Shown: positions 6,636 to 34,895 of the stretch, piece by piece | How the letters are laid out: every line of letters begins with the position of its first letter | Position numbering within the stretch: position 1 is the first letter of the stretch | DNA from: an uncultured Porphyromonadaceae bacterium | Lineage (GTDB): Bacteria; Bacteroidota; Bacteroidia; Bacteroidales; Muribaculaceae | DNA length: 64,000 bases | Direction: 5' to 3' | NCBI GenBank assembly: GCA_947573485.1 | Contig: CANPGB010000003.1 | Coordinates: 62,001 to 126,000, forward strand | Translations under genes and position numbers: made by a program | The notes under the pieces: model-generated | What the model was told of the DNA's origin: nothing | The model's database searches: none | The model's input: only the letters and a program-made list of their open reading frames with translations

Positions 6636-8189
6636 TCAACGCACGGGAGCGAGGCGCCACACCTTGCAGGCGTGGGGCGCGAGGCTTAGCTTGCGCGGGC
6701 CGTCGAGGCGCCCGTCATCGCTGCGCTCCATGAGGTTGCGGAGGGTGTAGGCGGTGCCCGCTTCGAGGGCTTCGATGTCGGCGGGGTCGAGGGTGTAGTC
6801 GGCCGCGGTGTCGTTCATATTCACCACCGCAACGGCCACACCGCCGTCGGCGAGGTCTTTGACCCAGAGCTGGAAGCCGTCGCGCTCATGCACGAAGTCG
6901 GCGCTCTGGCCCATTGGGTCCTGGTTGATTGCTATCAGTTCGGGATTGGTGATAACGGCGAGGTCGCCGGGCGAGATATAGTCGCGCACGTCAAGCGAGA
7001 GTATCAGCGGAGAGCTCCACATGCACCACATGGCAAACTCCGTGCGGGCCTCCTCGGTATCCATGCCGGTGTAGCGCTGGCCGTCTTTCTCGAACACACC
7101 CTCGGGGCGGTTGTAGGTGACATCGAGCAGCAGGAGATTCGACGCCTTGCCGCGGCCGCGGATACCTATGCAGAGCATGTCGGCGTCGTTGAAGTGGTTT
7201 ACGCCGGTATACTGCGAGAAATGCCGCCAATGGTTCATGATGTCGAAAACGCCCTGGCCGCCGAGGTGAGTGTTATCGGGGTCGGTGTTGAGGCGTCGGC
7301 CATACCAGCCGTCGCGGTGGTCGTGCGTGGCGCGCCACATGGGAGCCCCGGCCTTGTGAGCCCACTCCCAGGGGCGTGTGGTGCCCCACTCGCACATATA
7401 CAGCACTATGGGGCGCCCGGTCTTGTCGAGGGCGCGGCGCATGCGGCTGTAGAGGTCGAGCGCCACTTCCTGCGTGGTGTAGTCGCCGATATTCAGCTCG
7501 GGCACCCAGCAGTAGTCATATTTGAGGAAGTCGACACCCCAGTCGGCATAAGCCCGCGCGTCGATATCCTCGAAGAGGTAGCTGCCGAACTTGTTGTCGC
7601 AGGTGCGCAGAGCCGCCGTAGAGTATATTCCGAATTTAAGGTCGCGCTCGTGAAGATAATCGCCCACGGCTTTCATGCCATGGGGGAAACGCACGGGGTC
7701 CGGCGCGGGGATGCTGTCGGCGGGACGCTCGGCACCACAGTGCCAGTCATCGTCGATACCGAGCCAGCGGTAACCGGCGTCATAGAGGCCTTTGTCGTGC
7801 ATGGCGTCGGCAGTCTCACGCAGGAGCGATTCAGAGACGTTGGAGAGCACCACGTTCCAGCTTAGCCAGCCCATCATAGGCGTAGGCATGGGCAGCGATG
7901 AGCTCACGGTGAGATGCACGGGCACGGTGTCGGCCCCGGCGATTACGTTGTAGACGTAGTCGCCTTCGGCAGCCACCGTACCCTCCACGAGCTTGCGGCG
8001 GTCGTTCCACCTCAGCCCCTCGGGGAGCTTCTCCACACGAGGGGTGAGAGTGGTGTCGGAGAGGCGTATCTTGTGCATATAGCGCACACCCGGCAACGAG
8101 AACGTACGGTCGGAGCTGTCGAGAACGCGCGCCGAGGCCGAGGCGCCCACCGCGAGGGCGGCCATAAGGGTAAGCAAGTTTTTTCTCAT
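6636..8189 (-). CDS. Secreted alpha-galactosidase, glycoside hydrolase family 27
   Basis: 517 residues with a signal peptide (1-20) and a small beta-rich N-terminal domain (about 21-95), then a clan-D TIM barrel. The barrel starts at GWLSWNVV (107-114) and shows the GIDDDWH motif (144-150). The nucleophile is D225 in FLKYDYCW, and the acid/base is D290 in WRATHDHRDGW, with R286 the usual substrate ligand. A C-terminal beta domain follows. It would remove terminal alpha-D-galactose; some GH27 enzymes act on alpha-GalNAc or beta-L-arabinopyranose. It is the last gene of the PUL operon, 1 bp after the GH36 gene. Confidence 0.93.
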   Translation of the reverse strand: MRKNLLTLMAALAVGASASARVLDSSDRTFSLPGVRYMHKIRLSDTTLTPRVEKLPEGLRWNDRRKLVEGTVAAEGDYVYNVIAGADTVPVHLTVSSSLPMPTPMMGWLSWNVVLSNVSESLLRETADAMHDKGLYDAGYRWLGIDDDWHCGAERPADSIPAPDPVRFPHGMKAVGDYLHERDLKFGIYSTAALRTCDNKFGSYLFEDIDARAYADWGVDFLKYDYCWVPELNIGDYTTQEVALDLYSRMRRALDKTGRPIVLYMCEWGTTRPWEWAHKAGAPMWRATHDHRDGWYGRRLNTDPDNTHLGGQGVFDIMNHWRHFSQYTGVNHFNDADMLCIGIRGRGKASNLLLLDVTYNRPEGVFEKDGQRYTGMDTEEARTEFAMWCMWSSPLILSLDVRDYISPGDLAVITNPELIAINQDPMGQSADFVHERDGFQLWVKDLADGGVAVAVVNMNDTAADYTLDPADIEALEAGTAYTLRNLMERSDDGRLDGPRKLSLAPHACKVWRLAPVR

Positions 8190-8190
8190 A

Positions 8191-10386
8191 TCAATCTACA
8201 GCGTCGAGGCGGAGAACACGGCTTGAATAATCCGACATCAGAGCCACATCGGCCGGGAGGTGGCGGTAAGGCATCTCAAGGCCGTTCTCCATGAGGTAGC
8301 GGCCCGTGAACACCTTGCCCTCGCAGGCGAGAGGCTTGGCATCGATAGCGTTGAGCTCTGTCACACGGTATTTGCGGTCGGGGTCGAGGCCGTCCATTGT
8401 CACGCGGGGATAGTGGTGGTTATGGAAGTCTTCGGTCTTGTACCAGAAGAACACGGCATGGTCGCGGGGCTCGTCGACGTACATCAGGGCGGCAACGCCG
8501 TCGCCGTCATATGGCGAGTGCAGGCGGTACTGGTCTCCGAGCTGCACGGTGGGGCGTATTTCCTTGTAGGCGGCTATGGCCTTGCGGCAGAAGTCGCGCT
8601 CGTAGTCGGTCATCTGCGAGGGCTGCAGCTCTATGCCGAGGCGTCCGCTCATGGCCACGTCAACGCGGTATTTGATAGGCGTGGCGCGGTGCGAGGCGTG
8701 GCAGGGAGAGGCCGAGATGTGCTGCGCCATGGTCATGGCCGGGAAGAAATACGAGGCACCCCACTGCATGTAGATGCGGTGCAGAGGGTCGGTGTTGTCG
8801 CTCACCCAAAATTCATCGAAGTACGGGAGCACGCCCCAGTTGGCGCGACCGCCGCCGCTGGCGCAGGCCTGCACGGTGACGTCGGGGTACTTCTCGCGCA
8901 GCTTCTTGAGCACGCTCTCGAAGCCGCGGTGCCAGTTGATGTAGAGGTGGCTCTGCTCATCGGCGGGGAGGTACTGCGAGCCGTGGTTCTTGATAGGCAT
9001 GTTGGAGTCCCACTTGATATAGGAAATCTGCGGGTATTCCGACATGAGGCGGTCGAAAACATTGTACACATGTTTCTGCACCTCGGGGTTTCCGAGGTCG
9101 AGCACGAGCTGCGTGCCGCCGCGGCCAAAGACGGGGTCGCGGCGCGGAGCCTTTACAATCCAATCGGGGTGTGCCTCGTAGAGCTCGCTGAGCGTGTTGG
9201 TCATCTCGGGCTCAATCCATATGCCGAAGCGCAGACCTTTTGACTTGGCGGAGTCGAGAAGGCCGCCTATGCCGTTAGGCAGCTTGCGGGTGTCTATTTT
9301 CCAGTCGCCGAGGCCCTGGTGGTCGTTGTCGCGTGGATATTTACCGCCGAACCAGCCGTCGTCGAGCACGAAAAGCTCGCCGCCCATGTCGGCAATATCC
9401 TGCATCATGCGGTCGAGAACGGGCTCGTTGACGTCGAAGTATATGCCCTCCCAGCTGTTGAGCAGCACGGGGCGCGGCTCATCGGGGTGCTGTAGGCGGT
9501 GACGCCTGCCCCAGCGGTGGAAGTTGCGGCTCACTCCCGAGGTACCTTTGTCGCTGTAGGAAATGGCTGCCGCAGGGGTGGTGAATACTTCGCCGGGCTT
9601 AAGGGTATATGCCGAGTTTGCGGGGTCTATGCCCATTATGAGCTTGTGGCGGTCGGTGAGGTCGGTGTTTACCGTGAGGTCGAAGTTGCCGCTGTAGCAG
9701 AGTGCGGCGCCGAGAGTGCGGCCGCTGCGCTCGTCGGGTTTGCCATCGAGGCTCAGCATGAGTTCGGCCTGGGCGGCCTGGGAGTTGCGCACGCCGTCGC
9801 GGTTGCGTATGCTCTTCACGCCGGGGCGGAGCTCCTCGGTGTTGAGCTGAGTCTCATTGCCCCAGGCGCCATTGAGGTGCGAGAGCCACACGTTGCCACG
9901 GCGTACGGGCAGGAAGAGCGAGGCGTACTCGGTGAGGCGCACGGGCTTTTTCTCCGAGTGCGAGACTTCGGTCCATGTCTCTATCACGTCGCAATCGTCG
10001 CGGGTGAGGTAAACGACGTCGATATAGAAGGGGTACACGGTGTCTTTGAGGCGCACGCGCGTTGTTGTCGAGCCGTCGGCGCCCGTGGTCTGCGTGGCGC
10101 TCTCAACCCGCACGTCGGTGCTCATGTTGCCGTCGGCGTGGGTAGCGGCGAGGGCGTAGGGATTGGAGGTATCCATGCCATATACGGGGAAGGCCTCGAC
10201 GTGGTTCTCGGCGCCCATAACGGCAGGGATGTCGGCTTCGGCGAGCTTGGGGCCGAAGTAGACGTACTCGAATTTCTCACCCGGCTGTGCATCGAGCAGG
10301 AGCGACAGCGCCGGAGTGGAAACATGGAGCTGCGCCCCGGCGCCGAGGGTGGCACCGAGGGCGAAGAGGGCAAGCGTCAGTCTCAT
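8191..10386 (-). CDS. Secreted alpha-galactosidase, glycoside hydrolase family 36
   Basis: 731 residues, the usual length for bacterial GH36: signal peptide (1-19), N-terminal beta-supersandwich (to about 310), TIM barrel, then a C-terminal beta domain. Diagnostic motifs are LDDGWFGG (341-348), the nucleophile D460 in YIKWDSN, ACASGGGR (507-514), and the acid/base D530 in SDNTD. It would cleave alpha-galactosides such as alpha-1,6-linked galactose. The ATG overlaps the upstream stop codon (ATGA), so it is translationally coupled to the GDPD-EEP gene. Having both GH27 and GH36 suggests two different alpha-galactosyl linkages or positions in the same substrate. Confidence 0.95.
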   Translation of the reverse strand: MRLTLALFALGATLGAGAQLHVSTPALSLLLDAQPGEKFEYVYFGPKLAEADIPAVMGAENHVEAFPVYGMDTSNPYALAATHADGNMSTDVRVESATQTTGADGSTTTRVRLKDTVYPFYIDVVYLTRDDCDVIETWTEVSHSEKKPVRLTEYASLFLPVRRGNVWLSHLNGAWGNETQLNTEELRPGVKSIRNRDGVRNSQAAQAELMLSLDGKPDERSGRTLGAALCYSGNFDLTVNTDLTDRHKLIMGIDPANSAYTLKPGEVFTTPAAAISYSDKGTSGVSRNFHRWGRRHRLQHPDEPRPVLLNSWEGIYFDVNEPVLDRMMQDIADMGGELFVLDDGWFGGKYPRDNDHQGLGDWKIDTRKLPNGIGGLLDSAKSKGLRFGIWIEPEMTNTLSELYEAHPDWIVKAPRRDPVFGRGGTQLVLDLGNPEVQKHVYNVFDRLMSEYPQISYIKWDSNMPIKNHGSQYLPADEQSHLYINWHRGFESVLKKLREKYPDVTVQACASGGGRANWGVLPYFDEFWVSDNTDPLHRIYMQWGASYFFPAMTMAQHISASPCHASHRATPIKYRVDVAMSGRLGIELQPSQMTDYERDFCRKAIAAYKEIRPTVQLGDQYRLHSPYDGDGVAALMYVDEPRDHAVFFWYKTEDFHNHHYPRVTMDGLDPDRKYRVTELNAIDAKPLACEGKVFTGRYLMENGLEMPYRHLPADVALMSDYSSRVLRLDAVD

Positions 10387-11870
10387 TTAGTGTAGTCTAC
10401 TACGATAGTGGAAAATACGGGTATGTGGTCAGAGGCGGCATGCTTCGAGGCGGTGCCTTCGCCGGTGCTCTCCACGGTAAAATCGGCGGTGGGGAAGCCG
10501 AAGAGATAATCGAGGCGCTTGACAGGTGCGTGCGAGGGGAAGGTGGGCTCCAGGCCGGTGAGCATGAGGCCGCCTTCGAGCATGGCCTGGATAGCGGCCA
10601 TTTCGGGAGTGCAATTGAAGTCGCCGCCCACTACTGCGGGTATACCGTCGGCAGTGAGGCGCGGTATGATGTAGCGTGCCTGCTTCTCGGCGGTCTCTTT
10701 ATTAGAGAAATCGAGGTGTGTGGAGGCGAAAATGAAGGGCATATGGCCATCGAGCAGGAAGGTGCCTTTGAGGAGGGCGCGAGGCTCCACCGCCTTGGGG
10801 TTTGGCAGTGCTATTGTCTCCATTTTCTCGGCGGGGTGCTTCGAGAGGATAGCTATGCCGTAGTAGCCGGGGTTGTCGCTCTTGCCGAGGTTGAGAGTGC
10901 GGCCATAGTAGCCGAACATGCCGGTGAGGTATGCAAGCTCGTTCACAAAGTTCTTGCCGTTGTTATGGGGTGCGATATTGCGGCGCGAGTTTACATCTAC
11001 CTCCTGAAGAGCCACGAAGTCGGGGTCCTGGGCCTTGATTTCCTCGGCCAGGCGCTGCATTGAGGCGAGTTCGCCGAAGCGGAGGTTGTAACTCATGATT
11101 TTGAGTTTGCGGGGCGCGTAGGCTTTGGCAATGAGCTGCTGGGTGAGCTCGGGTTCGTTGGTGGTGATGAGGTCGGCGCCATGGTCGATGCACCACTGTA
11201 TGTCGGCCTCGGAGTCAACTGTCCAAATATTCACCGGCATGCCCTGCTCGTGAATCTCGCTTATCCACTCGGGGCTTGCGCGATAAATGTTGATGTGGTA
11301 GTCGGAGCCCGAGCCGCCTATTTCTTTGAGCACCTTGGGGCTTACACCGTTGAGGTAGAGCACGGGGCGTCCGCTCTGAGCCACGAGGAGATCGAAGGCG
11401 TGGCGCGAGAAAGTGATGTAGCTTGTGCGCTCGGTGAGGCCTTTGTCGGCTATCATCTTGATAATCATGGGCACAGCAACATCTTCACGCTTGTTGTCTT
11501 TATGAGGTTTGACTTCGAGCACGAGGTCGATGCCGAGGGTGGCAGCGGTGTCGAGGAAGGCGTCGAGGCGCGGCAGGAACTCGCCGTTGGAGAGTTTTTC
11601 TTTATCGAGAACGTCTTGTGTCGAGGTCTCGATTATAACGTCGTTTATTTCGGGGTTGTGGTTCACATAAAGCACGTCGTCGGCAGAAATCCATACGTCG
11701 AACTCGCAGGCGTCGGCCTTAATGGAGTCGGCCTTAACGAGGGCGCGGATAGAGTTCTGAGCCGAACCGGGGGCGCGGTGATAACCGCGGTGTGCCACTA
11801 CTTTGGGTACTCCGGCAAGGGCGCCGAAAGCTATGCACAGAAACAGGAAGAATGAAAGGAAACGTGACAT
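10383..11870 (-). CDS. Fusion of glycerophosphodiester phosphodiesterase and endonuclease/exonuclease/phosphatase (EEP) domain
   Basis: I start the gene at MSRFLSFFLFL (ATG 11868-11870), which gives a clean signal peptide and 495 residues; an ATG 27 bp upstream would add nine polar residues. Domain 1 (about 23-245) is GDPD: AHRGYH (26-31; H27, R28), CEFDVW (55-60; E56, D58) and VNHNP (69-73; H71). Domain 2 (about 256-490) is an EEP-fold hydrolase: MSYNLRFG, LQEVD (E290), GGDFNCTP and SDH (480-482). The first half should cleave glycerophosphodiesters. The second belongs to a superfamily with nucleases, sphingomyelinases and inositol phosphatases, so its substrate is open. Being exported inside a PUL argues for a decorated glycan or glycolipid. 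Confidence 0.88.
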   Translation of the reverse strand: MSRFLSFFLFLCIAFGALAGVPKVVAHRGYHRAPGSAQNSIRALVKADSIKADACEFDVWISADDVLYVNHNPEINDVIIETSTQDVLDKEKLSNGEFLPRLDAFLDTAATLGIDLVLEVKPHKDNKREDVAVPMIIKMIADKGLTERTSYITFSRHAFDLLVAQSGRPVLYLNGVSPKVLKEIGGSGSDYHINIYRASPEWISEIHEQGMPVNIWTVDSEADIQWCIDHGADLITTNEPELTQQLIAKAYAPRKLKIMSYNLRFGELASMQRLAEEIKAQDPDFVALQEVDVNSRRNIAPHNNGKNFVNELAYLTGMFGYYGRTLNLGKSDNPGYYGIAILSKHPAEKMETIALPNPKAVEPRALLKGTFLLDGHMPFIFASTHLDFSNKETAEKQARYIIPRLTADGIPAVVGGDFNCTPEMAAIQAMLEGGLMLTGLEPTFPSHAPVKRLDYLFGFPTADFTVESTGEGTASKHAASDHIPVFSTIVVDYTK

Positions 11871-11931
11871 GGTATTTTTTTTTAAGTCAAAAGTCAAGAG
11901 TCAGAAGTAAAAAGTTTTAAGTCGAAAGTAA
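11871..11931. repeat. Imperfect AGTCAAAAGTC-type short repeats in a PUL intergenic gap
   Basis: The 61-bp gap between the orphan secreted-protein gene and the GDPD-EEP gene is made of imperfect units of about 10 bp (AAGTCAAAAGTC, AAGAGTCAGAAGT, TTTTAAGTCGAAAGT). A related C/T-rich version (TTTTGACTCCTGCC, TTTTGCCTCCTGAC) occurs near 29977-30006, and a CCTAACCCC-type run lies inside the orphan gene near 1560-1612. Confidence 0.5.
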
Positions 11932-12882
11932 TTAATCGGCCTTGGGCAGACTTATCACCGTGGGCGTGGCACCGATATAGGCGCGATAGGCAAAGGTGTC
12001 GGAATCGTCGGTAAGAGGCTGCGCGAACCATGAGTATACGCCGTGCCAACGGGTGGTCTGCCCGCGGCGCACCGCGCGGTCGCCCACGGTCTTGTGGTAG
12101 GCCTTGGAGTAGGAGTTGCCGATGAACACCCAGTCGTCGGGCGACACCATGCTGCGGTCGCCGAGGGTGCCAGCGGCGGGGTCGAGCCAGCAGGCCTGAT
12201 AGGCGTCGGGCGAGTGCTCTACAAAGGTGCAGAAGCGTGGCGAGGAGGCGCGGTTGAAGCGGTCGACCTGCGATATGGGCGTCCACTCCGAGTAGAGGCC
12301 GCCGGGGGTGAGCACCTCGGTTTCGCCTATGAACATCGACTGCATGCCATAGTAGCGGTTGACTGTGACGGGCGCCGCGTTGAGAAACACGTGGAGAGCG
12401 TTGACCTCCACACTGTTGCCGGCCACGGTGTAGCGCATGCACTCGTCGGCGAAGGCGGCAGTATCGGCGGGCATCAGCAGGCGGTTGTTAACGTAAATAT
12501 CGAGCGATGTGCAGGTGAGAGTGTCGGCCTTTGTGAGGCTGAGGGGGCGGTTACCGGGCTGCGCGTATACGGCCACCGACTCAGTGCGTGCCGAGCGCAT
12601 GTCGCCGTTGAGGTGGTTGCCGCCGCTCCACCCTCCTCCGGCGAGGCCGAAGGGGCCGATGTTGTCGCTCGATGTGGCGTTGACGAGCTTGCCGTTGAGG
12701 CTCACACGGCTGAAGGTGAAGAGCTCGTTGGCCATGCAGGGGGCAAACTCTATGCGCACCTCACCGGCGCCGGGCACGGTGTCGGTGTAGCTCAGAGAGC
12801 CACCTCCCGTAACAACCACGGCTGCCGACGCCCACAGGGGCGCCGACAGCATCAAGGTGTTTATGCGTGCTCGGAGGCTCAT
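11932..12882 (-). CDS. Secreted protein of unknown function in the PUL operon
   Basis: 316 residues, N-terminal signal sequence (about 1-20), no lipobox and no membrane helix. The composition is typical of an all-beta extracellular protein: YTDTVPGAGEVRIEF, then LFTFSRVSLNGKLV, many Gly, Asp and Ser, and long runs of alternating hydrophobic residues. I recognise no glycosidase motif. The ATG overlaps the stop of the DUF4855 double-domain gene (4-bp ATGA overlap), so it is made together with it. It could be a glycan-binding protein, a lectin-like beta-sandwich, or an uncharacterised enzyme. Confidence 0.75.
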   Translation of the reverse strand: MSLRARINTLMLSAPLWASAAVVVTGGGSLSYTDTVPGAGEVRIEFAPCMANELFTFSRVSLNGKLVNATSSDNIGPFGLAGGGWSGGNHLNGDMRSARTESVAVYAQPGNRPLSLTKADTLTCTSLDIYVNNRLLMPADTAAFADECMRYTVAGNSVEVNALHVFLNAAPVTVNRYYGMQSMFIGETEVLTPGGLYSEWTPISQVDRFNRASSPRFCTFVEHSPDAYQACWLDPAAGTLGDRSMVSPDDWVFIGNSYSKAYHKTVGDRAVRRGQTTRWHGVYSWFAQPLTDDSDTFAYRAYIGATPTVISLPKAD

Positions 12883-14963
12883 TTCACGATTTCGGGTTTT
12901 GCGCGGCGGCCTACTATGATGCGAGCCACCTGATCGAGCATGGCCTGATTCTCGGGCGAGGGATTATTTACCATGTCGATAAAAGCCTTGCTGCCGGTGT
13001 ACCAAGCCACGGGGCTCTTATCCCATACGCCATGGCGAGCGAAAGCGTCGATATAGCTCTGCATGCGGCTCATCTTGCTGTTCTCTTTCTGCGAGAGAGC
13101 GTCGCTGTCGCACTCAAATTCCATGGCCATGCCGTTGAGGAGCGAGATGTCGATAGCTTCGTCGAGGCGTTTGTCGGGCTTTGTCCACTCAAAGAAGTGG
13201 CCGGGCTGCTGATATACGATGTCGAAGCCCATTTCACGCCAACGCTCGTAGCCGCGGCCTTTGAAATAGGGAATCCACGAGAACTCGAGGCCCTTGCTGT
13301 GGATATAGGGAGCGATGAGCTTGGGAAAGTCTTTGGTGTGGATGAGGTCTTCATCGAGCCAGTAGATGCCTTGGAGGTCGAGGTTGGCGTATCCGGCCTT
13401 GTTGAAGCGGTCGAGCATCTGATCGAGGTACCACTTGGCGGCCGTGACGCGGTCGTCGTCGTTGTCGAAGTCGAGAGCCTTGCCGTCGACCTCGCCCCAG
13501 TGCTTGTTGCCGCAGACGGGCACGAGCAGGGTGAGCACAATTTTGTGGCGGAAACCGGGGTCGCCGATTTCTTTTTTGAGCTTGCCTATGCACTTGTCGA
13601 GAGCATCAAGGCTCTTGCCCTCTTCAAAGAGGCGGTCGAGGTACCACTGCCAGTCGGCCTTGGTAGCACCCTCGAAACCGGCCCAGGGAATAAATTTGAT
13701 GTCGCCGTTGCGCTGGGCGTCGAGGAAGAGGTAGCCGTCGAAGAGCCAGTCGTGGCTGCCGTCGGCATAGGTGTGCGCCACATAGGGGCGGAACTGCTCT
13801 TCGGTCCAGTCGATGCGGTAGTCGGCGCCCTGCCATATGAGGCCGAGGTCGCGGATGCTGTTCTTGGGGAACTGCATGGTAGCGGCCTTGGCAGCCTGGC
13901 GGCGTGCCACGATGTCGGCCATGCGGTCGGCAATCTCGTGGTTCTTGGCGTCGGCGCTGCGGTCGAGGTCAAGAAAACCTTTGGTGCCGGAGTACCATGC
14001 CACGGCCGATTGGTCGTAGACGCCCTTCTCCTCGAATACCTTTATATAATCTTCGAGGCGGGTGAAGTAGCTGTCGGGGTCGTCGTGCTGCAGACGGCTT
14101 GTGCCCTGGGTCTCAAACTCCATTTCGAGGCCCATGCCGTAGCGGTGAGCTTCGTCGCAGGCGTCGTAGAGGCGCTGCATGGGAATCTCGCGCTCGAAGA
14201 AGTAGTTGGGCTGCAGATAGGTGATGTCGAACTTGTATTTGTCGTGCCAATTGAGTTTGAACTGGTCGTTCTTGGCAAAATAGGGAATCCAATACGAGCG
14301 GAGGCAGTTGCGGTAAATCCAGTCGTTTACGCGGGGCACAATCTCACCGTTGGTGTAGAGGCCTTCCTCCACCCAGTAGAGGCCGGTGAGGTCCACGTTC
14401 TTGAGGTTTGCGGCGTTGAAGCGCTTCACGGCCTCGGTAACATACCACTTCGAGGCCTCGAAGCGGTCGTCATCTTTAGCGAAGTCGAGGGTGCGGCCAT
14501 TTACCTGACCCCATGCGGTGCCCTGGGCCTTGATAGGCGCGGGCATGCCGAGCACGGCCTTGTGGCGCAGGCGCGGCTCGCCGAGCTCTTTCTTACCGAT
14601 TTCTATAGCTTGGTCGATGCTGCGGAGGGCGTCGATGTGCTTGTCGAGGAGCCACTCCCAGTCGGCTTTGTCGGCGTAGTTCTTGCCCACACCGTTCTGG
14701 AAGCCCTTGTCGGTGGAGCCGGAGGTGAACTCGAGGATCAGGAATCCGTCAAAGAACCAATCTTTGTGGCCGTCGGCGTAGGTGTGCACCACATAGGGCA
14801 TAACCTCGTCGACAGTCCACTGCGGGCGGCGGTCGGCACCGGCATAGATGAGGGCGAGGTCAGAGATAACGTCGGTGGCGTAGCGGTTGAACTCTGTCTG
14901 AGCCGTGGCGGCAAGCGACACTATGGCCATGAGTGCCGCTACCAAACAGTTGCGTAATTTCAT
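12879..14963 (-). CDS. Secreted protein with two tandem DUF4855-like domains
   Basis: 694 residues with a signal peptide (1-21). Two homologous halves cover about 22-345 and 355-690. Each begins with an [D]LxLIxxGAD motif and has a YVxHTYADGxxDWxFDG motif, a long central region ending in DLxGxYWxxE, then WIPYF and an acidic MEFE box. The pattern of repeated Trp, Asp and Glu residues at strand ends suggests a TIM-barrel-like hydrolase fold, and I assign the family as DUF4855 from memory of such sequences. No activity is established. Position in the operon points to glycan breakdown or binding. Confidence 0.78.
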   Translation of the reverse strand: MKLRNCLVAALMAIVSLAATAQTEFNRYATDVISDLALIYAGADRRPQWTVDEVMPYVVHTYADGHKDWFFDGFLILEFTSGSTDKGFQNGVGKNYADKADWEWLLDKHIDALRSIDQAIEIGKKELGEPRLRHKAVLGMPAPIKAQGTAWGQVNGRTLDFAKDDDRFEASKWYVTEAVKRFNAANLKNVDLTGLYWVEEGLYTNGEIVPRVNDWIYRNCLRSYWIPYFAKNDQFKLNWHDKYKFDITYLQPNYFFEREIPMQRLYDACDEAHRYGMGLEMEFETQGTSRLQHDDPDSYFTRLEDYIKVFEEKGVYDQSAVAWYSGTKGFLDLDRSADAKNHEIADRMADIVARRQAAKAATMQFPKNSIRDLGLIWQGADYRIDWTEEQFRPYVAHTYADGSHDWLFDGYLFLDAQRNGDIKFIPWAGFEGATKADWQWYLDRLFEEGKSLDALDKCIGKLKKEIGDPGFRHKIVLTLLVPVCGNKHWGEVDGKALDFDNDDDRVTAAKWYLDQMLDRFNKAGYANLDLQGIYWLDEDLIHTKDFPKLIAPYIHSKGLEFSWIPYFKGRGYERWREMGFDIVYQQPGHFFEWTKPDKRLDEAIDISLLNGMAMEFECDSDALSQKENSKMSRMQSYIDAFARHGVWDKSPVAWYTGSKAFIDMVNNPSPENQAMLDQVARIIVGRRAKPEIVK

Positions 14964-14985
14964 AGATATGTGCGTGTGTTAGTTG

Positions 14986-21181: not shown

Positions 21182-21231
21182 TGTGTTTTGATTAGATAAT
21201 TGTAAGTGTATCAGGATTACCGGTATGTCTT

Positions 21232-21262
21232 AAAAAATCCCCCGGGCTTTAAACCCGGGGGG
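21232..21262 (-). terminator. Rho-independent terminator inside the PUL
   Basis: CCCCCGGG (21239-21246) pairs with CCCGGGGG (21254-21261) around a 7-nt loop. On the minus strand it is followed by A and then six T residues. It lies between the 1094-residue gene and copy 1, so it should end or thin out transcription from upstream. Confidence 0.85.
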
Positions 21263-21297
21263 TTATGTGAGAGTGTGGGGTTCGTTTTTACAAATGC

Positions 21298-24582: not shown

Positions 24583-24788
24583 GTATAAAACAGGTTAAAT
24601 GATAATAATTGAGTTTCTGCGGTGATTATAGCCCGACGGCACTGTGAGTCGCGGGCCAATCGTTTTAATCGGCGTCCTGTAGGACGCCATGTGTTTCCTT
24701 GTGAAATCCGGGCACGCCTTTGCCCTTCGGGCGCGGGCGTACCCGGTTACTGGATTAATCAGCGTCCTGACGGACGCCACAGAGCTTT
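24583..24788. repeat. Intergenic region with paired GCGTCC/GGACGC palindromes
   Basis: Two short palindromes, GGCGTCCTGTAGGACGCC (about 24671-24688) and GCGTCCTGACGGACGC (about 24762-24778), flank a larger hairpin whose arms start CCGGGCACGCC and end GGCGTACCCGG. They are structured elements between two members of the same paralogous family and may mark the boundaries of the duplication. Confidence 0.55.
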
Positions 24789-26108: not shown

Positions 26109-26161
26109 CTCTTTGGGTTTTAGGTTGATATAATTGGATAGATTTGTTGATATTCAATTTT

Positions 26162-27811
26162 TCAGATTATGACTTTACGCACGTCGGAACCCTGGCGGCG
26201 GATATATACACCCGTCTCGGGATTCTCCACGCGCATGCCCTGCAGATTGTAGTACTCCACGGGGGCATCGGCAGGTGCGATTTCGGGGGCGTCGGCGCCA
26301 CTGTTTACTTTATAGTCACCGGCGCGCACGGCGATGTAGCATTTCATGCCGCCAACCTTAGCTTCGAGACGGTAAGTGCCGTCGCCTGTCACGGTGAGTG
26401 TCTTGCCGTCGGCGCTGACGGTGCCGAGGCCTTCGGGAGCGATGAGGGTGAAGTTGGCAACGTTTTTGTTAACGATGAGTCCGGCATTATTGTAACCGTA
26501 AATCACGGGGCTGAACTTATCGCCTATTTCAAGAGTCTGATTGGGGTGGGCAAACTCTATCGCCACCATTTCGGAGTTGTTGGGCACTGCAGTTGCCACA
26601 AACCAACCGGTTGTCACGGCGCGGCCAGCCGTGGCGCCACCGCTGGGCTTGTTAATCATGCCGAAAGCGTGGGTGTACATTATCGATGAGCCACCACCGT
26701 CGAAGTTGATGGCGTTGGTGCAGCCGGTAACTTTCATAAGGTCGGCAAACTCTTTGGCAGTGCAGCCGGCCGATACGCCCTTGTTAGTGTTGTCGCCGTC
26801 GACAACCACCATGCGCATGAGTGTGCGCGAGTCGTCACAGCCAAGGCCTGTGCGCGGGCGGCGCGAGTCGTGGTTGGGCATATACTGCTGCGAGGAGGCG
26901 AGCTCGGTGCCGTTCTCATAGAGCACGGGGTTGCCACCGTTCATTACCTTAAGCTCGCGGAAACTGTGGCTCACACCAAAGGCGTTACCGGCCATATTCC
27001 ACGTAGAGGGGGTAATGGTGTAAGTATCGCCTGCCTTGAGGAGGCCGAGGTCGTTGATATGCTTGGTGATATTGCTCGAAAGCACGATGCAGCCTTCGGG
27101 AATTGCCATGCTGCCGCCGTTCTTGACGGGAGCGCTGACAACGGTGCACACCGTGGGCTTATCTGAGTAAAACACACCGTCGGCGGGGCGGAGAGCCACT
27201 TCAATCTGAGCTTCTCCTTTAGTGGTGCTTGTCGTTGTACCCCAACGGCGTGTGTAGATAATGCACTCGCCCTCGGCGCGGGGAACGTTGACAAGCGAGG
27301 GGGCGTATTCTGTAACGCCGTTGAGCTTGGCACCAAAGTTAACAGAGGGGTTACCGAAATAAAGCTCTTTTGTAGCCGGGTCCTGAGCCACGGCACGCCA
27401 GGCGGTTGAAACCTTGGCGGTCTTATAAACTTCACCGTTTACCACAGTGGTGCCGATAGGGCCTGTTACCGAAAAGAGGTCGGAGTTGACGCCTGCCACA
27501 TAGGTATAGCCGTCGGAGGCGTGATTGGTCACCATTTGCGGCACGGTGACGGTAGACTTCAGATTGTCTTTGCCGTTGATTGTGCGTAGTTCCACGCCGT
27601 CGGCGGTGAGGTCGGTGGCGCTGATAAATACTTTCTGCTTACGCGCGCTGCTTGTAAGCTCTACAACGGTAACATATGTACCGGGTCCTGCCTTATAATG
27701 CTGCAGGGTGTCGACGGCATATGCCGTGGTTCCGAGCGTCCACGTCTCGGCCTTGGCTGCCGGAGTTGCGATTGCCGCTGCGGCGGCGAGGATTATAAAC
27801 AGTTGTTTCAT
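26162..27811 (-). CDS. Secreted phosphodiester glycosidase (NAGPA domain)
   Basis: 549 residues, signal peptide 1-21. The NAGPA-type domain (about 100-415) shows VAGVNSDLF (105-113), RPRTGLGCDD (318-327), MRMVVVDGD (332-340) and the hallmark NFDGGGSS (369-376). A bacterial Ig-like domain follows (about 425-505), then the tail YYNLQGMRVENPETGVYI. NAGPA is the family of the lysosomal uncovering enzyme, which hydrolyses GlcNAc-1-phosphodiesters to mannose-6-phosphate. The bacterial version should cut a sugar-1-phosphodiester. The gene overlaps its upstream neighbour by ATGA. Together with the GDPD gene it implies a phosphodiester in the glycan. Confidence 0.9.
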   Translation of the reverse strand: MKQLFIILAAAAAIATPAAKAETWTLGTTAYAVDTLQHYKAGPGTYVTVVELTSSARKQKVFISATDLTADGVELRTINGKDNLKSTVTVPQMVTNHASDGYTYVAGVNSDLFSVTGPIGTTVVNGEVYKTAKVSTAWRAVAQDPATKELYFGNPSVNFGAKLNGVTEYAPSLVNVPRAEGECIIYTRRWGTTTSTTKGEAQIEVALRPADGVFYSDKPTVCTVVSAPVKNGGSMAIPEGCIVLSSNITKHINDLGLLKAGDTYTITPSTWNMAGNAFGVSHSFRELKVMNGGNPVLYENGTELASSQQYMPNHDSRRPRTGLGCDDSRTLMRMVVVDGDNTNKGVSAGCTAKEFADLMKVTGCTNAINFDGGGSSIMYTHAFGMINKPSGGATAGRAVTTGWFVATAVPNNSEMVAIEFAHPNQTLEIGDKFSPVIYGYNNAGLIVNKNVANFTLIAPEGLGTVSADGKTLTVTGDGTYRLEAKVGGMKCYIAVRAGDYKVNSGADAPEIAPADAPVEYYNLQGMRVENPETGVYIRRQGSDVRKVII

Positions 27812-29832
27812 AGATTAATTCGTATTGCAGAAATGGGCTTCATTTTAAGTTCCTTGCCGTCGGGGAGGGTCACGGTGTGGGGCTTGGAGTCGCTGTTTAC
27901 CACATAGAGCACCTCTTTGCCGTCGGCCGAGAGCCAGCGGGCGCCTTTCACCATATAGTCGTAGCCGAAAGAGTTGACGTTGACGTAGGGGTTGTCGCCG
28001 CCGGGGATTATTTCCTCGAGGTATTGGCCGCCCACGAACACGTCGTGCTGGTCACGGCGGAAGTCGGCGAGGTTCTTGAGGTATTTGGCCTCGTAGGCGG
28101 TGCGGTCGTCTTTCCAGAGGAGGCGGGGGTCGACCCAGCCGAGCTGAGCGCCGTAGAGCAGCGCCTGCATGTTCTGGTAGCGGAAGTCGCCGAGGGTAAC
28201 GTCGAAGTAGGGGCTGTAGGTGAAGGCCGTGGTGAGCACGCGGTCACTGTAGATGAGGGGGTAGAGAGGCACAATCTTGCACGAGGGGTTGTGCGGGGTG
28301 TTCACGGTGAGGAGGATGTCGAACACGGGTATGTAGCACTCGGCGTTCTCCTCCGAGAAGATTATGTTGCCTTCGGGGAGGTGGTCGGAGCGCATGTCGT
28401 CGATAATGCCTTTATAGCTGTGGTACCAGAACTCGCCGCCGCCTTTGGCGTGGGGGTGGTTGGCAGCGTAGCAGGGGTAAGGTGCCGCAGCTGCAATCTG
28501 GTCGATATAGATGCCGTCGGTGCCTACGCCGAGCTGTATGGAGTCGGCAAGCTCAATGAGCATGTCGTGCCAGATGGGCGATGCGGGGCAGGTGACGGTG
28601 TTGGGTACGATAGAAGTGGGGTAAATCTCGGTGTAGAGGGCACCGTCGGGGCGGCGGCACGAAGCCTCGTAGCCTTTGCGTGCCTTGTAGCTGTCGGCTC
28701 CGGGGTCCCAGAGGCGGCCGTTGATGTAGGGCATAACCTTTGCGCCGCGTTTGCGCACCTGCTGCACTATGCCGCTGAACTCGGGTTTTGCGGGCAGATA
28801 GTCGGGGTAATGGCTGTCGTAGGCGTGGTTATGCCAGAAGTACCAGTGTATTGCCACGTCGTTGCCGTAGTAGTCGAGGGCTTTGTTGACGGCGTTTACG
28901 GTGGTGTCGCCGGTGTACTTTGCGCGCAGCCACAGGTCTTTGTCTTTGAGCCACTGGGGTATGGGGCGGTCGTTGAGCTTGAGCTTGCCCCACGATGTGG
29001 AGTGTGCGAAGGGTCGGTACCAAGCCTTGGCAGCCTCGGCCCAGCCCTGCGGGTGGAAAGAGGTAACGGTTGTCCAGGGGAGGGTGAAACGGCCGTCTTT
29101 GTTCCAGGCCTCCGAGACAACGGTCTTGGTGGAAAATTCACTCTGACCGAGGCGCTCGCCTATGGTCATGAGTTTGCCGCAGGCGGCGTAGTCGCGCGGC
29201 GAGTAGAAGTATGAGCCTTCGGGGTCGTCGAGCATCATCATCTGCATGGATGCCGACCACGAGGGGTAATTAGCCTCGTAGACTGTGTCGGGGCGGAGCT
29301 TGTACTCGTTGCCCCAGCCTGCCGGGGTGATAACTTTAGCCGGAGCCTCGGGCGAGGTCACGGCTATAGTGGGGAACTTAAGCTCGCTCACCGTCCAGCC
29401 TTCGGGGAGGGCGGCGGAGATGTTCCACTGAAGAAGGGGTGAATTGTCGGGGAGCGACACTGTCATCTCCACCGGGTAATTATTTCCGTCGTATTGCAGA
29501 CGGGTAAACCATTGGAAACGAAGAACGGCAGCCGAATCGTTGCGCTCCGAGGTATAGCCCTGATATACGGTGCAAGCGGGGTTGACTTCGGGGGTCTCGC
29601 CCTGCGCGCCGAGGTAGGTAATGGTCCAGGGAGCGAGGTTGCTGCCGGGGGTGACGAGCTCTCGCGAGCCGTTGTGCTTCATCGACACGATGTCGAAACG
29701 CTTGCCACTGTCGAAAGTCACCGACGTAAGGTCGTTGGCAAGGGTTACAGTGCCCTCCCCCTTTTCAATACGGGAGTTGGCGAAGGCGCCGAGAGCGGCG
29801 GTTATGGCAAGAGCGGTAAGCGTGAATCGCAT
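27808..29832 (-). CDS. Secreted DUF6259-type putative glycoside hydrolase
   Basis: 674 residues with signal peptide 1-18. An N-terminal beta-supersandwich (about 25-275) precedes a TIM-barrel-like region (about 285-570) and a short beta C-terminus. Barrel motifs include HWYFWHNHAYDSHYPDY, KVMPYINGRLWD, GVGTDGIYIDQIA (435-447; D444) and IIFSEENAE (490-498; E494/E495). D444 and E494/E495 are candidate nucleophile and acid/base by analogy with GH-A/D-type barrels such as GH101; this is inference. The architecture matches DUF6259 proteins. It is coupled by a 4-bp overlap to the phosphodiester glycosidase and is the first gene after susD. Confidence 0.78.
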   Translation of the reverse strand: MRFTLTALAITAALGAFANSRIEKGEGTVTLANDLTSVTFDSGKRFDIVSMKHNGSRELVTPGSNLAPWTITYLGAQGETPEVNPACTVYQGYTSERNDSAAVLRFQWFTRLQYDGNNYPVEMTVSLPDNSPLLQWNISAALPEGWTVSELKFPTIAVTSPEAPAKVITPAGWGNEYKLRPDTVYEANYPSWSASMQMMMLDDPEGSYFYSPRDYAACGKLMTIGERLGQSEFSTKTVVSEAWNKDGRFTLPWTTVTSFHPQGWAEAAKAWYRPFAHSTSWGKLKLNDRPIPQWLKDKDLWLRAKYTGDTTVNAVNKALDYYGNDVAIHWYFWHNHAYDSHYPDYLPAKPEFSGIVQQVRKRGAKVMPYINGRLWDPGADSYKARKGYEASCRRPDGALYTEIYPTSIVPNTVTCPASPIWHDMLIELADSIQLGVGTDGIYIDQIAAAAPYPCYAANHPHAKGGGEFWYHSYKGIIDDMRSDHLPEGNIIFSEENAECYIPVFDILLTVNTPHNPSCKIVPLYPLIYSDRVLTTAFTYSPYFDVTLGDFRYQNMQALLYGAQLGWVDPRLLWKDDRTAYEAKYLKNLADFRRDQHDVFVGGQYLEEIIPGGDNPYVNVNSFGYDYMVKGARWLSADGKEVLYVVNSDSKPHTVTLPDGKELKMKPISAIRINL

Positions 29833-29868
29833 CTAAGTGTTTGTTGTGTTGGTGTGGTTTTTTATATA

Positions 29869-29900
29869 TTTCCGGACCGCCGCTGAGGGCGGCCCGGAAA
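29869..29900. promoter_or_regulatory. Stem-loop between susD and the enzyme genes
   Basis: TTTCCGG-A-CCGCC pairs with GGCGG-C-CCGGAAA (one mismatch, 6-nt loop). No strong T run follows on the minus strand, so it could pause transcription or protect the susCD mRNA, a common arrangement in PULs. Just beyond is a smaller palindrome, ACATGGCTTTGCCATGT (29935-29951). Confidence 0.55.
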
Positions 29901-30016
29901 TTCTATTGCTTAGTTAGGAGTTGAATCTGTAGGGACATGGCTTTGCCATGTTTACTACTGCCTTGAGGCACCCTACTTTTGACTCCTGCCTTTTGCCTCC
30001 TGACTTTAACGTCCAG

Positions 30017-31819
30017 TTAATATCCCTCAGGGTTGGTGAGGTTGGGGTTGCGGTCGAGGTCAGTGCGGGGAATAGGCCACCAGAGGAATCGTTCTGCCCA
30101 GAAGCGTTTCACGTCGCGCGCGGTGTACTTTTCGGTAACGCCGGCAGCGGTGTAGCTGGGCACGTCGTTGAGGTTGTGACGGTCGGTTTTCTTGAAGGTG
30201 GGCATATCGGCCTTGGTAAGACCTTTGAACTTGATGTCGGCGATAGGCTGGCCATAGACGGGTTCCTCGTTGAGGATGTCGCCGATTTTCCAGCGGCGGA
30301 AGTCGGTGAGGAGGATGCCTTCCATAGCAAGCTCAACCTTACGCTCGCGGCGTACAATCTGGCGCATGAGGTCCTGGTTGCCAACGCGTGCGGGCACGGC
30401 CTTGTCGAAGTCAATCTGACCTGCGCGGCGACGCACGGTGTTGATAGCGTCGTACACGGTCTGGTCGAGTTCGCCGAGCTCAATCTTGGCCTCTGCGTAG
30501 GTGAGGTAAGCCTCAGCGGCACGCATGATGATGAGGTCGAGGGTAGAGTCGGAGAAGCCTTCGGTCTCGTCCTGGTTGTATTTGTTCCAGAGCATGCCTA
30601 CGCCGTCGCGGGCTTCAGAGTAGGCGGTACCTGTAACGGCGAGGTTGTTGTACTTATACCATTTGCCTTTCTGACGGGGGTTGGGGTACTGGCTCGAAGT
30701 CTTGCCGTAGCAGTCGATTTCGATAGCTTTCTCGTGGTTGCTGAACCACATGGTGTCGCCGTGCATGAGGATGGTGTGACGGAAACGGGGGTCGCGGTTC
30801 ATGAAAGGCTTGGTGGGGTCGTAGAGGGGCGATTCGTCGATGCGGAGACCGTCGGCGCACTCATATACTACGGCGAGCATGTTCGAGGGGAAGCGAACCG
30901 ACGAGCCACCTGCCGTACGCGAGGTGTGGCCGTAGCGCATCTTGTGGGTGTGGTTCACGGCGCCGAGGCAGTAGGTGTACTCCCAGAGGATTTCGCTGCG
31001 GGTGGTAGAGAGAGCCTGACCGGCGTGGGTGAAGAGGTCGTTGAAATTGGTGGCGAGCTTGTGGTGATCCATTACCTTCTTGGCAGCGTTGGCTGCTATG
31101 CGGTAGTAGTCCTGGCCCTTGCCGCCAACGTTGTGGCTGCCGCCGAGGAGACCGAAACGGGCAATAAGGTTGTAGATCATACCGTTGCCTACACGGCCTG
31201 TCTGCTCGGGAGTCCAGGGGAGGATTTCGGCCTCGCCGATAGCGGTGAGCTCGTTGATGATATAGTCGATAATCTCTTCTTTATCGTGGCGGGGCTCGGT
31301 GTACTGCTCGGGGGTGACAGCCTTGGGGAAGAAGGGAATGTCGCCGAAAGCCTGCACGAGGTTGTAGTAGGCATAGTCGCGCACGGCGATAGCCTCGCAG
31401 TAGCGGCGCTTATAGGTGTCGCTCACACCGGCGTTGGGGTCGAAGAGGGTGGTGTTGTCGATAGCGCAGTCGGTAACCACGTTATTGGCACGTGCCACGA
31501 TAGCCCAGTGACCGCTCCAGTACGAGTTCACGTAGGTTTGGTCGGGGGTAAGACCGCCACCGGCGCTGATAGTGTTGTTTTCGTCGGCCATGAGACCGTA
31601 GGGGCAGTAAACGTCCTGCATCACTGCCACGGGCACGGCCCAGTTCTGGTCGTAGGGCACGAGACGGTATATTGCGGTGACGCCGTCGTTCATGCCGGCC
31701 TCCGACTTGTAGAAACCGTCGGAGTCATAGGCCGTGCTTTCCTTGTCGAGGAAGTCGGAGCAGGAGCCCAGGGAGAGAGCCGCTACGGCCATGAAAGCTG
31801 TATATAGAGTCTTTTTCAT
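30017..31819 (-). CDS. SusD/RagB-family glycan-binding lipoprotein
   Basis: 600 residues. The lipobox LSLGSC puts the lipidated cysteine at C20. The sequence has SusD features: the N-terminal DFLDKES, the helical (TPR-like) region with EAIAVRDYAYYNLVQAFGD (about 190-208), then RGLR-type loops and a C-terminal WPIPRTDLDRNPNLTNP that is highly typical of the family. It is a surface lipoprotein that binds the glycan and caps the SusC transporter. It lies 13 bp downstream of susC, and the pair defines the PUL. Its sequence does not reveal the ligand. Confidence 0.95.
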   Translation of the reverse strand: MKKTLYTAFMAVAALSLGSCSDFLDKESTAYDSDGFYKSEAGMNDGVTAIYRLVPYDQNWAVPVAVMQDVYCPYGLMADENNTISAGGGLTPDQTYVNSYWSGHWAIVARANNVVTDCAIDNTTLFDPNAGVSDTYKRRYCEAIAVRDYAYYNLVQAFGDIPFFPKAVTPEQYTEPRHDKEEIIDYIINELTAIGEAEILPWTPEQTGRVGNGMIYNLIARFGLLGGSHNVGGKGQDYYRIAANAAKKVMDHHKLATNFNDLFTHAGQALSTTRSEILWEYTYCLGAVNHTHKMRYGHTSRTAGGSSVRFPSNMLAVVYECADGLRIDESPLYDPTKPFMNRDPRFRHTILMHGDTMWFSNHEKAIEIDCYGKTSSQYPNPRQKGKWYKYNNLAVTGTAYSEARDGVGMLWNKYNQDETEGFSDSTLDLIIMRAAEAYLTYAEAKIELGELDQTVYDAINTVRRRAGQIDFDKAVPARVGNQDLMRQIVRRERKVELAMEGILLTDFRRWKIGDILNEEPVYGQPIADIKFKGLTKADMPTFKKTDRHNLNDVPSYTAAGVTEKYTARDVKRFWAERFLWWPIPRTDLDRNPNLTNPEGY

Positions 31820-31832
31820 TGTGTATCCTTAA

Positions 31833-34800
31833 TTAGAAGTCGAGTTGGAGTCCTACGAGATAAGAACGGTTGAGGGGGTAGCACTTGGCGCCCTTCGAGC
31901 TTTCAGGGTCGAAGCCCTTGTAGAAGTCGTCGGCACGGATAGTGAAAAGGTTCTGGCCGGAGAAGTAGATGCGGCAGCGCTCGATGTAAGCCTTGCGTGT
32001 CCACTTGGCGGGCAGGGTGTAGCCCACGGTGAGGTTCTTGAGGCGGCAGAAAGCACCGCTCTTGAGCCAGAACGACGAGAAGAGGTTGTTGGGCGAGTTA
32101 CCGCCAACGTCGTTGATGAGGAGGGGGTAGCGTGCATCGGTGTTGTCTTCCGACCATGCGTCGAGCTGGTGCTCGTAGATAGTGGAGTTGCCGAGGAGTG
32201 CACGTGCGCCACCGCCGGTGTAGGCTACGTCGCGCTTGCCCACGCCCTGGAAGAAGATGCTCAGGTCGATGCCCTTCCAGTTACCGCCGAGGGTGATACC
32301 GTACTCGAAGTGGGGGAGGTTGTCGCCGATTACCTGGCGGTCGTCGCCGGTGATTTCGCCGTCGCCGTTGATATCCTTATATTTGATGAAACCGGGTTTC
32401 ACGTTCTGGCGTGCACCGTAAACGGCGTTGATGTACTCGCCGTTCTCGTCCATGGCGTTGATTTCGTCGTAGCTCTGGAAGAGGCCGTCGGCCACGTAGC
32501 CGTAGAACTGGCTGTAGGGGAGGCCTTCGGTGGTAAGGCGTGTGTCGCTCTTGTATTCGTTGCCGTAGAGGTCGAGCACCTTGTTGCGAACGTCAGAGAT
32601 GTTGAACTTGGCGTAGTAGTTGAAGTCGCCCACGCGGTCGTTCCACTCGAGGGCAAGTTCCCAACCGGTGTTGCGCATCTTGCCGGCGTTCTGCCAGGGA
32701 GCGGAGAGCGATACGAACTCGGGCACGGGGAATTTCTGAATCATGTCGTCGACGTGACGGTAGTACCAGTCGAAGGTACCCGAGAGACGGTTGTTGAAGA
32801 AGGCGAAGTCGAGGCCGACGTCATACTGTGTGGAGCGTTCCCAGCCGATGTTCGAGTTGGCGAGCTGTGTCTGGGCGGCACCGGGGGTGAAGGCACCGTC
32901 GAACCAGTAGCCGTAGCCTTCGGCACCCGAGATAGCGGCCACGTAGGGGAAGAACGAGCCGTCGAGGTCCTGGTTACCGAGCTGACCGTAAGAAGCACGG
33001 AGCTTGAGGTTGCTGAGCACTGTCTGATTCTTCATGAAAGCCTCTTCAGAGATACGCCAACCTGCCGATACCGAGGGGAAGAAGCCCCAGCGTTTGTGAG
33101 CCTTGAAGCGCGAGGTGCCGTCGTAGCGGCCGTTCACTTCGAGGAGGTAGCGGTCGGCAAAAGCATAGTTGACACGGAAGAGGTACGAGAGCATGGCGTA
33201 GCTGTAGCGGTAGCTGGTGTTGGTGGCCGTTGAGGCGTCGCCGTGCACGAGATCGTGGTAGCCGTCGTAGTTGAAGGTGTTGCGGTAGCCTTCGAGGCTG
33301 TTGTAATTGGTATCTTCGCTCTGGAAGCCTACCATAGCCTTGATGTAGTTCTTGGCGAAGGTGTTCTCGTAGGTTGCGAAAGCGTTGTACTGGATAAAGT
33401 CGCGGGTAAACCAGGTGTCACGCACAGCATTTACTGTGGGGCGGGTTTCCTTGAACACACCGGCTTCGTATTCGTCGTACTGGTCAGCCCAGGTGTAGGT
33501 GCGGCCCTGGCCACGTTTCCACACGTAGTTGCCGATCACGGTAAGGCCCTTCACCGGAGTAAGGGTGAGGCTTGCCTTGGCGTAGTACTCGGGCGACTTG
33601 CTGTTCTGGTAGCCGCCGGCATAGATAGTTGCGGCGGGGTTGTTGCCCTGGAGGCCATAGCCCCAGTTTGTCTCGCCTGTCTCGGGGTTGATGTCGTAAG
33701 CGGCGTAAATGGGGGCGAAAGTCATGGCGTAGCCTACGAGATCGGTAACACCACCGATGGGCGAGTGAGCCTCAGCCTGACGTACGCTCATGTCGGCGCC
33801 GAGTTTGATCCAGTTGTTGATCTTCATATCGGCGTTGAGGCGCATGTTGTAGCGCTTGAAGTAGTTGTTGGGCACGAGACCATCCTGGTGGTAGTAGCCT
33901 GCATTGGCATAAACGCTCAGGAAGTCGCTGCCGCCCGAAACGCCTACGGAGTAGTTCTGCACCATAGCGCTTTTCTTCATGATGACGTCGCGCCAGTTGG
34001 TGTCGTAGCGGCCGAAGTTGTTGGCGCCCTCGGTGCGGTAAGCTTCGATGAGCTCGGTGTACTGGGGTGCTACGTCGTTGTTGATGTTGGCCTGGTCAAC
34101 GGCGGAGAGGTAACCGATAGCGTCGACGGGCTTGGGCATCTCGGTAGGAGTGTTCCAGCCCACATAGCCGTTGAAGGTAACTTTGGGTTTGCCCTGGGCT
34201 CCGCGCTTGGTGGTGACGAGGATAACGCCGTTAGATGCGCGCGAACCGTAGATAGAAGCCGAGGCAGCATCTTTAAGCACCGAAATCGACTCGATAGAGT
34301 TCACGTCGATGCGGTTCATGTCGCCTTCGACACCGTCGATGAGCACCAGAGGCGAGGTGGTGGAGTTGAGCGAGCCCACACCGCGGATTTTGATCGACAC
34401 GGCGTCGGCACCCGGCTGACCGCTCTCCTGAACGGCGCTGAGGCCCGGCACAATACCCTGGAGAACGTTGGCACCGTTCGACGAAGCTGCGCGCACAATC
34501 TGGTCGGAGTTGATGCTCTGCACGGCACCGGTGAGGTTGACCTTGCGCTGTGTGCCGTAACCTACGACCACAACGTCGTCGAGAGCATTGCTGCTCGTTT
34601 TAAGTTTTATGTCGTACTTGCCGGCGGCAGTGACGTCGATAGTCTGGTCCTGCATGCCTACATACGAGAATGTAAGTTTCTGAGGCGACGGGAGGATTAC
34701 TGTGTAATTGCCGTCGATGTCGGTGGTGACACCGATGTTATTGCCCTTTACTGATACGCCGATGAGCGGCTCGCCCGTCTCATCGGTCACCGTTCCGGTG

Positions 34801-34895
34801 ACTGTAAGCGCGGCAGATGCGCCAAAAAGTGCACTGTGGAGCACAAATACGGCCATCAACAGCAATAATCGTAGATGATGTACTGATTTTACCAT
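31833..34895 (-). CDS. SusC/RagA-family TonB-dependent outer-membrane transporter
   Basis: 1020 residues: signal peptide (about 1-28), a carboxypeptidase-regulatory-like domain (about 30-105; VTGTVTDETGEPLIGVSVKG), the linker DDVVVVGYGTQRKVNLTGAV (106-125), a plug domain (about 115-225; IRGVGS, LVLIDGVEGDMNRID, SIYGSRASNGVILVTTKRG), and a 22-stranded barrel to the C-terminal aromatic Phe. It imports the oligosaccharide into the periplasm using TonB energy. No regulator gene is found next to it. A 27-bp palindrome and a candidate promoter lie upstream. Confidence 0.97.
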   Translation of the reverse strand: MVKSVHHLRLLLLMAVFVLHSALFGASAALTVTGTVTDETGEPLIGVSVKGNNIGVTTDIDGNYTVILPSPQKLTFSYVGMQDQTIDVTAAGKYDIKLKTSSNALDDVVVVGYGTQRKVNLTGAVQSINSDQIVRAASSNGANVLQGIVPGLSAVQESGQPGADAVSIKIRGVGSLNSTTSPLVLIDGVEGDMNRIDVNSIESISVLKDAASASIYGSRASNGVILVTTKRGAQGKPKVTFNGYVGWNTPTEMPKPVDAIGYLSAVDQANINNDVAPQYTELIEAYRTEGANNFGRYDTNWRDVIMKKSAMVQNYSVGVSGGSDFLSVYANAGYYHQDGLVPNNYFKRYNMRLNADMKINNWIKLGADMSVRQAEAHSPIGGVTDLVGYAMTFAPIYAAYDINPETGETNWGYGLQGNNPAATIYAGGYQNSKSPEYYAKASLTLTPVKGLTVIGNYVWKRGQGRTYTWADQYDEYEAGVFKETRPTVNAVRDTWFTRDFIQYNAFATYENTFAKNYIKAMVGFQSEDTNYNSLEGYRNTFNYDGYHDLVHGDASTATNTSYRYSYAMLSYLFRVNYAFADRYLLEVNGRYDGTSRFKAHKRWGFFPSVSAGWRISEEAFMKNQTVLSNLKLRASYGQLGNQDLDGSFFPYVAAISGAEGYGYWFDGAFTPGAAQTQLANSNIGWERSTQYDVGLDFAFFNNRLSGTFDWYYRHVDDMIQKFPVPEFVSLSAPWQNAGKMRNTGWELALEWNDRVGDFNYYAKFNISDVRNKVLDLYGNEYKSDTRLTTEGLPYSQFYGYVADGLFQSYDEINAMDENGEYINAVYGARQNVKPGFIKYKDINGDGEITGDDRQVIGDNLPHFEYGITLGGNWKGIDLSIFFQGVGKRDVAYTGGGARALLGNSTIYEHQLDAWSEDNTDARYPLLINDVGGNSPNNLFSSFWLKSGAFCRLKNLTVGYTLPAKWTRKAYIERCRIYFSGQNLFTIRADDFYKGFDPESSKGAKCYPLNRSYLVGLQLDF

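Follow-up and report, generated by a model that had tools for sequence, protein, structure and literature searches.

A candidate polysaccharide utilization locus of Muribaculaceae that joins NAGPA, GDPD and EEP families to DUF6259, DUF4855 and u316

The described systems closest to the locus reported here are SusCD-type polysaccharide utilization loci (PULs), GH129 enzymes such as NagBb of Bifidobacterium bifidum, the NAGPA/DUF2233 family with the human uncovering enzyme (6PKU) and a bacterial protein (3OHG), and the GDPD family (3NO3 and others). The locus belongs to an uncultured Muribaculaceae bacterium with a genome of 2.88 Mb and lies in a window of 64,000 nucleotides (the whole stretch analysed, G000:C3:62001-126000), where it runs from 34895 to 6636 as 14 codirectional genes of the - strand, separated by 0 to ~210 bp or slightly overlapping in the list of open reading frames (ORFs). 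It has the features by which PULs are recognized: SusC (31833..34895, -) adjoins SusD (30017..31819, -), both assigned by Pfam, and glycan-active enzyme families are encoded in the same operon. An earlier note on this DNA had described one leftward gene set behind one SusCD pair, with GH27, GH36, GH3-SGNH, DUF6259, NAGPA and a GDPD-EEP fusion, and this description holds, with all of these families above their Pfam gathering scores. Absent from that note were two genes with three DUF4855 domains between them, a gene that we call u316, and three predicted secreted proteins (19835-26108). The note knew of no described PUL of this composition, in agreement with our literature search, which found no description of this gene set or of DUF6259, most subscription journals and PUL databases being outside its scope.

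We regard the chances as evenly balanced that the operon is a PUL for an O-acylated heteroglycan with alpha-Gal/GalNAc-type residues, bridged or decorated by phosphodiesters; the favoured candidate is perhaps a Gram-positive teichoic-acid-like or phosphodiester-linked polysaccharide. In the pathway that we infer, from substrate and localisation to the activities and the order of steps, SusCD would import oligomers, the SGNH domain would take off acyl groups, and GDPD would strip glycerophosphate-type groups. NAGPA would cut sugar-1-phosphodiester bonds, leaving phosphomonoesters for EEP to remove, and the backbone would be trimmed by DUF6259 as an alpha-glycosidase, by DUF4855 and by GH3. In the window's genus, GH36 and GH27 would also remove alpha-galactose.

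DUF6259 loci and their core

DUF6259 (27808..29832, -; Pfam 1.6e-95) has 15 matches above cut-off in 14 of 149 family genomes, and 13 of the 15 are within a few kilobases of a NAGPA gene (the exceptions are G003:C19, which lacks it, and G108:C200, where none was seen). A scan of named genomes, from which the best 80 of 362 DUF6259 relatives were kept, was added, and two locus types could be distinguished from the maps. Type 1 has the order SusC-SusD-DUF6259-(NAGPA)-u439 family-GH3(-SGNH)-DUF4855 (one to three)-u316-(GDPD/EEP). Taken as loci that have SusCD and DUF6259 and, in addition, at least one of u316, u439 and the first NAGPA type, it comprises 18 loci including the window's, among them those of Bacteroides nordii, B. 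salyersiae and a Massilibacteroides metagenome-assembled genome; the G028 locus was joined by inference from two contigs and the G045 locus from three. The count leaves aside a 3.6-kb contig (L095) and L106, L110, L130 and L146, which have DUF6259 with SusC, SusD or DUF4855 and carry neither u316, u439 nor the first NAGPA type. The usual core is SusCD, DUF6259, GH3, DUF4855 and u316, with the exceptions that GH3 is not shown in L133 and L117, that gene order differs in L117, and that G027 and L111 end before the position of u316. The set is more than a chance assembly, since a large part of it is found again, similarly ordered, in further genera and families.

The predicted structure of DUF6259 (pLDDT 95) has a fold of the alpha-glycosidase type, like those of GH129, GH36 and GH101. 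Its best match is the GH129 alpha-N-acetylgalactosaminidase NagBb (PDB 5WZN/5WZR), whose fold is found over the whole enzyme, and it also matches the Flavonifractor A-antigen galactosaminidase. At the sequence level, Pfam assigns the protein to DUF6259, and no GH129 enzyme was among the matches when PDB sequences were searched with a profile. D444 and E494 are invariant in 54 sequences. The GH129 likeness of the model hints at a galacto-configured substrate.

DUF4855 occurs once in a protein of 446 amino acids (aa) (14986..16326, -; Pfam 1.3e-63) and twice in one of 694 aa (12879..14963, -; 6.3e-170). In the single-domain protein E79, E217, E298 and E300 are invariant in 40 sequences, and we take DUF4855 to be a putative glycosidase; the family is named, for protein BT0442, in an iron-response table of one paper (PMC10434189). 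The other core protein, u316 (11932..12882, -; 316 aa), has no match in the Pfam scan, and a permissive scan of seven proteins of its family gave only weak matches or domains fused to single members. Its predicted fold is all-beta and galactose-mutarotase-like (a supersandwich), and H90, H164, H263, E147 and E222 are invariant in 14 sequences. u316 is rare, being found in 23 of 397 family genomes and in 4 of 393 genomes drawn from the order. A u316+DUF4855 label in the locus maps is provisionally taken to reflect a shared C-terminal tail. Sequence searches of solved structures with DUF6259, DUF4855 and u316 gave no credible match.

Type 2 loci have the order BACON protein-SIS-ROK-GH2-GH20-unassigned 747-aa protein-DUF6259-NAGPA-like-DUF4855, and genes for an amidohydrolase, MFS and Gfo/Idh proteins are often present as well; examples with GH20, often with GH2, SIS and a ROK kinase and in some cases with an amidohydrolase, are L116, L118, L122, L126, L127, L128 and L137, among others. 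This gene content points to a role of type 2 loci in amino-sugar catabolism. In Sphingobacterium and Parapedobacter (L147, L148, L150) SusCD is accompanied by two DUF6259 genes and relatives of DUF5017 and DUF4627, and no NAGPA was seen there.

NAGPA, GDPD and EEP in the loci

The NAGPA protein of the window (26162..27811, -; 549 aa), of the phosphodiester glycosidase family, matches PF09992 at 1.3e-24 and 87.8 bits (cut-off 25), and RT and NFDGGGS are invariant in 9 sequences spanning both locus types. The GDPD-EEP fusion (10383..11897, -) is 504 aa long from a TTG start, although an in-frame ATG nine codons inside is the likelier initiation codon. Both halves are above cut-off (PF03009, 1.6e-13; PF03372, 1e-23) and conserve catalytic-type residues.

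NAGPA is present in 13 of the 18 type 1 loci, and where it is present GDPD and EEP tend to be nearby. Of 12 loci with NAGPA, 10 have one or both within or directly next to the PUL (the window, G032, G045, G028, G046, G004, G027, B. nordii, B. salyersiae and G519, with L109 and L133 lacking them), as against none of the five without it (G003:C19, L096, L114, L102 and L117). Fisher's test of the association gives p = 0.0034; when the loci without NAGPA are limited to the three that are seen whole (L096 and L114 stop near a contig end), it gives 0.022. The test was chosen post hoc, after the maps, and its p values ignore the kinship of these mutually related loci. The count leaves out L111, where the contig stops after NAGPA, as well as G691, G724 and G727, partial loci in which the NAGPA position is out of view. 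In part of the loci, including the 17 with a second NAGPA type, GDPD/EEP were found by clustering with flanks of up to 10 kb. The EEP gene is divergent and upstream of SusC in G046, B. nordii and B. salyersiae. In a B. nordii locus (L100), NAGPA and the adjoining u439-type gene each seem split into shorter ORFs, which may be draft-assembly error or decay, and another SusCD locus of B. salyersiae (L211:9142-11054) has two EEP-like genes straight after SusD.

Fusions give a second line of evidence. GDPD is fused to EEP in the window and in G032, and a single 914-aa protein carries GDPD, GxDLY/SGNH and DUF4855 (G519, L218:11087-13831, -), while u316-EEP fusions are found in G028 (L092) and G691 (L224). 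The fusions with SGNH-DUF4855 and with u316 tie the phosphodiesterases to glycan enzymes of the pathway.

Several observations weigh against a phosphodiester-bearing substrate. NAGPA, GDPD and EEP are all missing from five type 1 loci, so the core does not depend on them; NAGPA itself is widespread, with 82 of 149 family genomes having it, and GDPD/EEP were found in one of the 17 loci carrying the second NAGPA type (L152). GDPD-EEP genes of 51-57% identity also occur outside PULs, at L175:10047-11516, L176:1334-2803 and L210:11602-13079, each adjoining the same P-loop gene (split in L210). In trees made without tblastn pieces shorter than 170 aa or containing stops, these non-PUL copies share one GDPD clade with the PUL copies of the window, G032, B. 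nordii and B. salyersiae (100/97), and the three cluster in the EEP tree with the window, G032, G045 and G028 (98/97), so a general role is possible. Other PUL copies, namely the GDPD of G004 and the EEPs of G046, G027, B. nordii and B. salyersiae, do not belong to the clades of the window's protein, so not all PUL copies are one inherited part. The phosphodiesterase parts seem to have been acquired more than once, which would fit a need of the pathway but also a mobile general protein.

The main rival to the phosphoglycan reading draws on these data: the target would be an alpha-Gal/GalNAc glycan without phosphate, either mucin-type or from plants, and NAGPA and GDPD-EEP would be hitch-hikers with general or phosphate-scavenging functions. 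We consider this possible, if on the unlikely side. The five loci without the three families and the same-clade GDPD-EEP genes outside PULs in three relatives speak for it, as do the matches of the DUF6259 model, NagBb and the Flavonifractor enzyme, which are host-glycan enzymes, and the ECF sigma/FecR pairs that precede SusC in L101, L108, L109 and L133, a layout common in host-glycan PULs. Against it, GDPD/EEP accompany NAGPA among type 1 loci and, elsewhere than in the window, form single proteins with enzymes of the pathway.

A glycosyl-phospholipid or GPI-like anchor, with EEP and GDPD acting on the head group, is an improbable substrate. PGAP2IP is a GPI-linked family, and the EEP domains fused to u316 match it weakly, at 1.7e-6 and 0.0022 (the latter under cut-off), but their plain EEP match is much stronger (7.9e-20) and Pfam finds no mannosidase family among the 15 genes of 6636-37914. 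Least probable is a substrate of fungal origin, a phosphomannan or galactomannan that has mannosyl-phosphate links, since, although yeast mannan contains a sugar-1-phosphodiester and a mannan PUL has a phosphatase, the defining enzymes of the fungal alpha-mannan PUL, GH76, GH92 and GH125, have no Pfam match in any of these 15 genes.

Within the phosphoglycan reading, a narrower and doubtful proposal is that the locus represents a kind of PUL that serves only for phosphoglycans of Gram-positive bacteria, either teichoic acids or capsules with phosphodiester links, with an exchangeable kit of NAGPA, GDPD and EEP on a core of DUF6259 and DUF4855, as putative glycosidase families, and u316, which would be a new mutarotase-fold family. 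If this is true, gut Bacteroidales harvest wall polymers of their Gram-positive neighbours.

Alpha-galactosidases and other genes of the operon

GH27 (6636..8189, -; 517 aa; Melibiase_2 5.7e-46) and GH36 (8191..10386, -; 731 aa; alpha-galactosidase-like, 2.6e-111) both match their family profiles, and their closest solved structures are alpha-galactosidases (putative ones for GH27). The earlier note had read the two as marking a galactose-bearing substrate with phosphodiester links. The phosphodiester part of that proposal is supported by the company that NAGPA keeps, the conserved residues and the fusions; a role of the alpha-galactosidases as a marker is not supported, since other loci have the same core without them. 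GH27 and GH36 stand together next to the type 1 set only in the window and G032, and GH36 also in the cut G691 locus, all of one genus. Neither is present at the visible 3' end of 11 other type 1 loci (G003, G004, G028, G046, G519, B. nordii, B. salyersiae, L102, L109, L117 and L133), and in G045 the EEP gene is followed by GH20 instead, which rules them out as a defining feature. From this distribution they appear to be an add-on of the window's genus, outside the core.

The remaining glycosidase of the operon is a 1129-aa fusion of GH3, GxDLY and SGNH esterase (16375..19764, -; GH3 C-terminal domain 2.4e-46, GxDLY/SGNH 3.6e-54). Between it and NAGPA are three proteins predicted to be secreted, as judged by eye from their N-termini: u448 (19835..21181, -; 448 aa), with a weak DUF5074 match (E 6.3e-4, under the gathering score); u1094 (21298..24582, -; 1094 aa), with two u439-like repeats by eye and no clear family in Pfam; and u439 (24789..26108, -; 439 aa), with homologues in many related loci. 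Across 19835-27811, NAGPA, u439, u448 and u1094 have a common C-terminal tail, Y/F-NLQG.RV.NP..G, which is perhaps a sorting signal.

A GH20 beta-hexosaminidase family gene (35446..37914, -) lies 550 bp upstream of SusC. Its membership in the set is uncertain because G032 has no GH20 at that place; in G045 a GH20 comes after EEP. A Bacteroidales-type promoter pattern was matched three times, once inside the GH20 ORF (37796-37827, -) and never ahead of SusC.

Comparison with known systems

If the phosphoglycan reading is right, the operon offers a genetic handle on the digestion of phosphate-bridged glycans by gut Bacteroidales. DUF6259, DUF4855 and u316, three families for which we found no studied member, would then be candidates for enzyme tests. 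Related loci occur in named human-gut species, B. salyersiae and B. nordii, in which growth, gene deletions and enzyme activities can be studied directly.

DUF6259 resembles GH129 NagBb in predicted fold, but the two share 13-14% identity and the activity of DUF6259 is a prediction. The NAGPA protein is placed in the NAGPA/DUF2233 family by its Pfam score, and its RT and DGGGS align with 3OHG; it differs in having extra N- and C-terminal regions and in sitting in a SusCD operon, and its bond specificity is likewise predicted. The GDPD half matches 3NO3 at 2e-46 and keeps the catalytic-type residues, whereas its fusion to EEP and its place in a PUL set it apart from the known GDPD family. With SusCD PULs in general the locus shares a SusC/SusD pair and glycosidases in one operon, to which it adds NAGPA, GDPD and EEP, combined with DUF6259, DUF4855 and u316.
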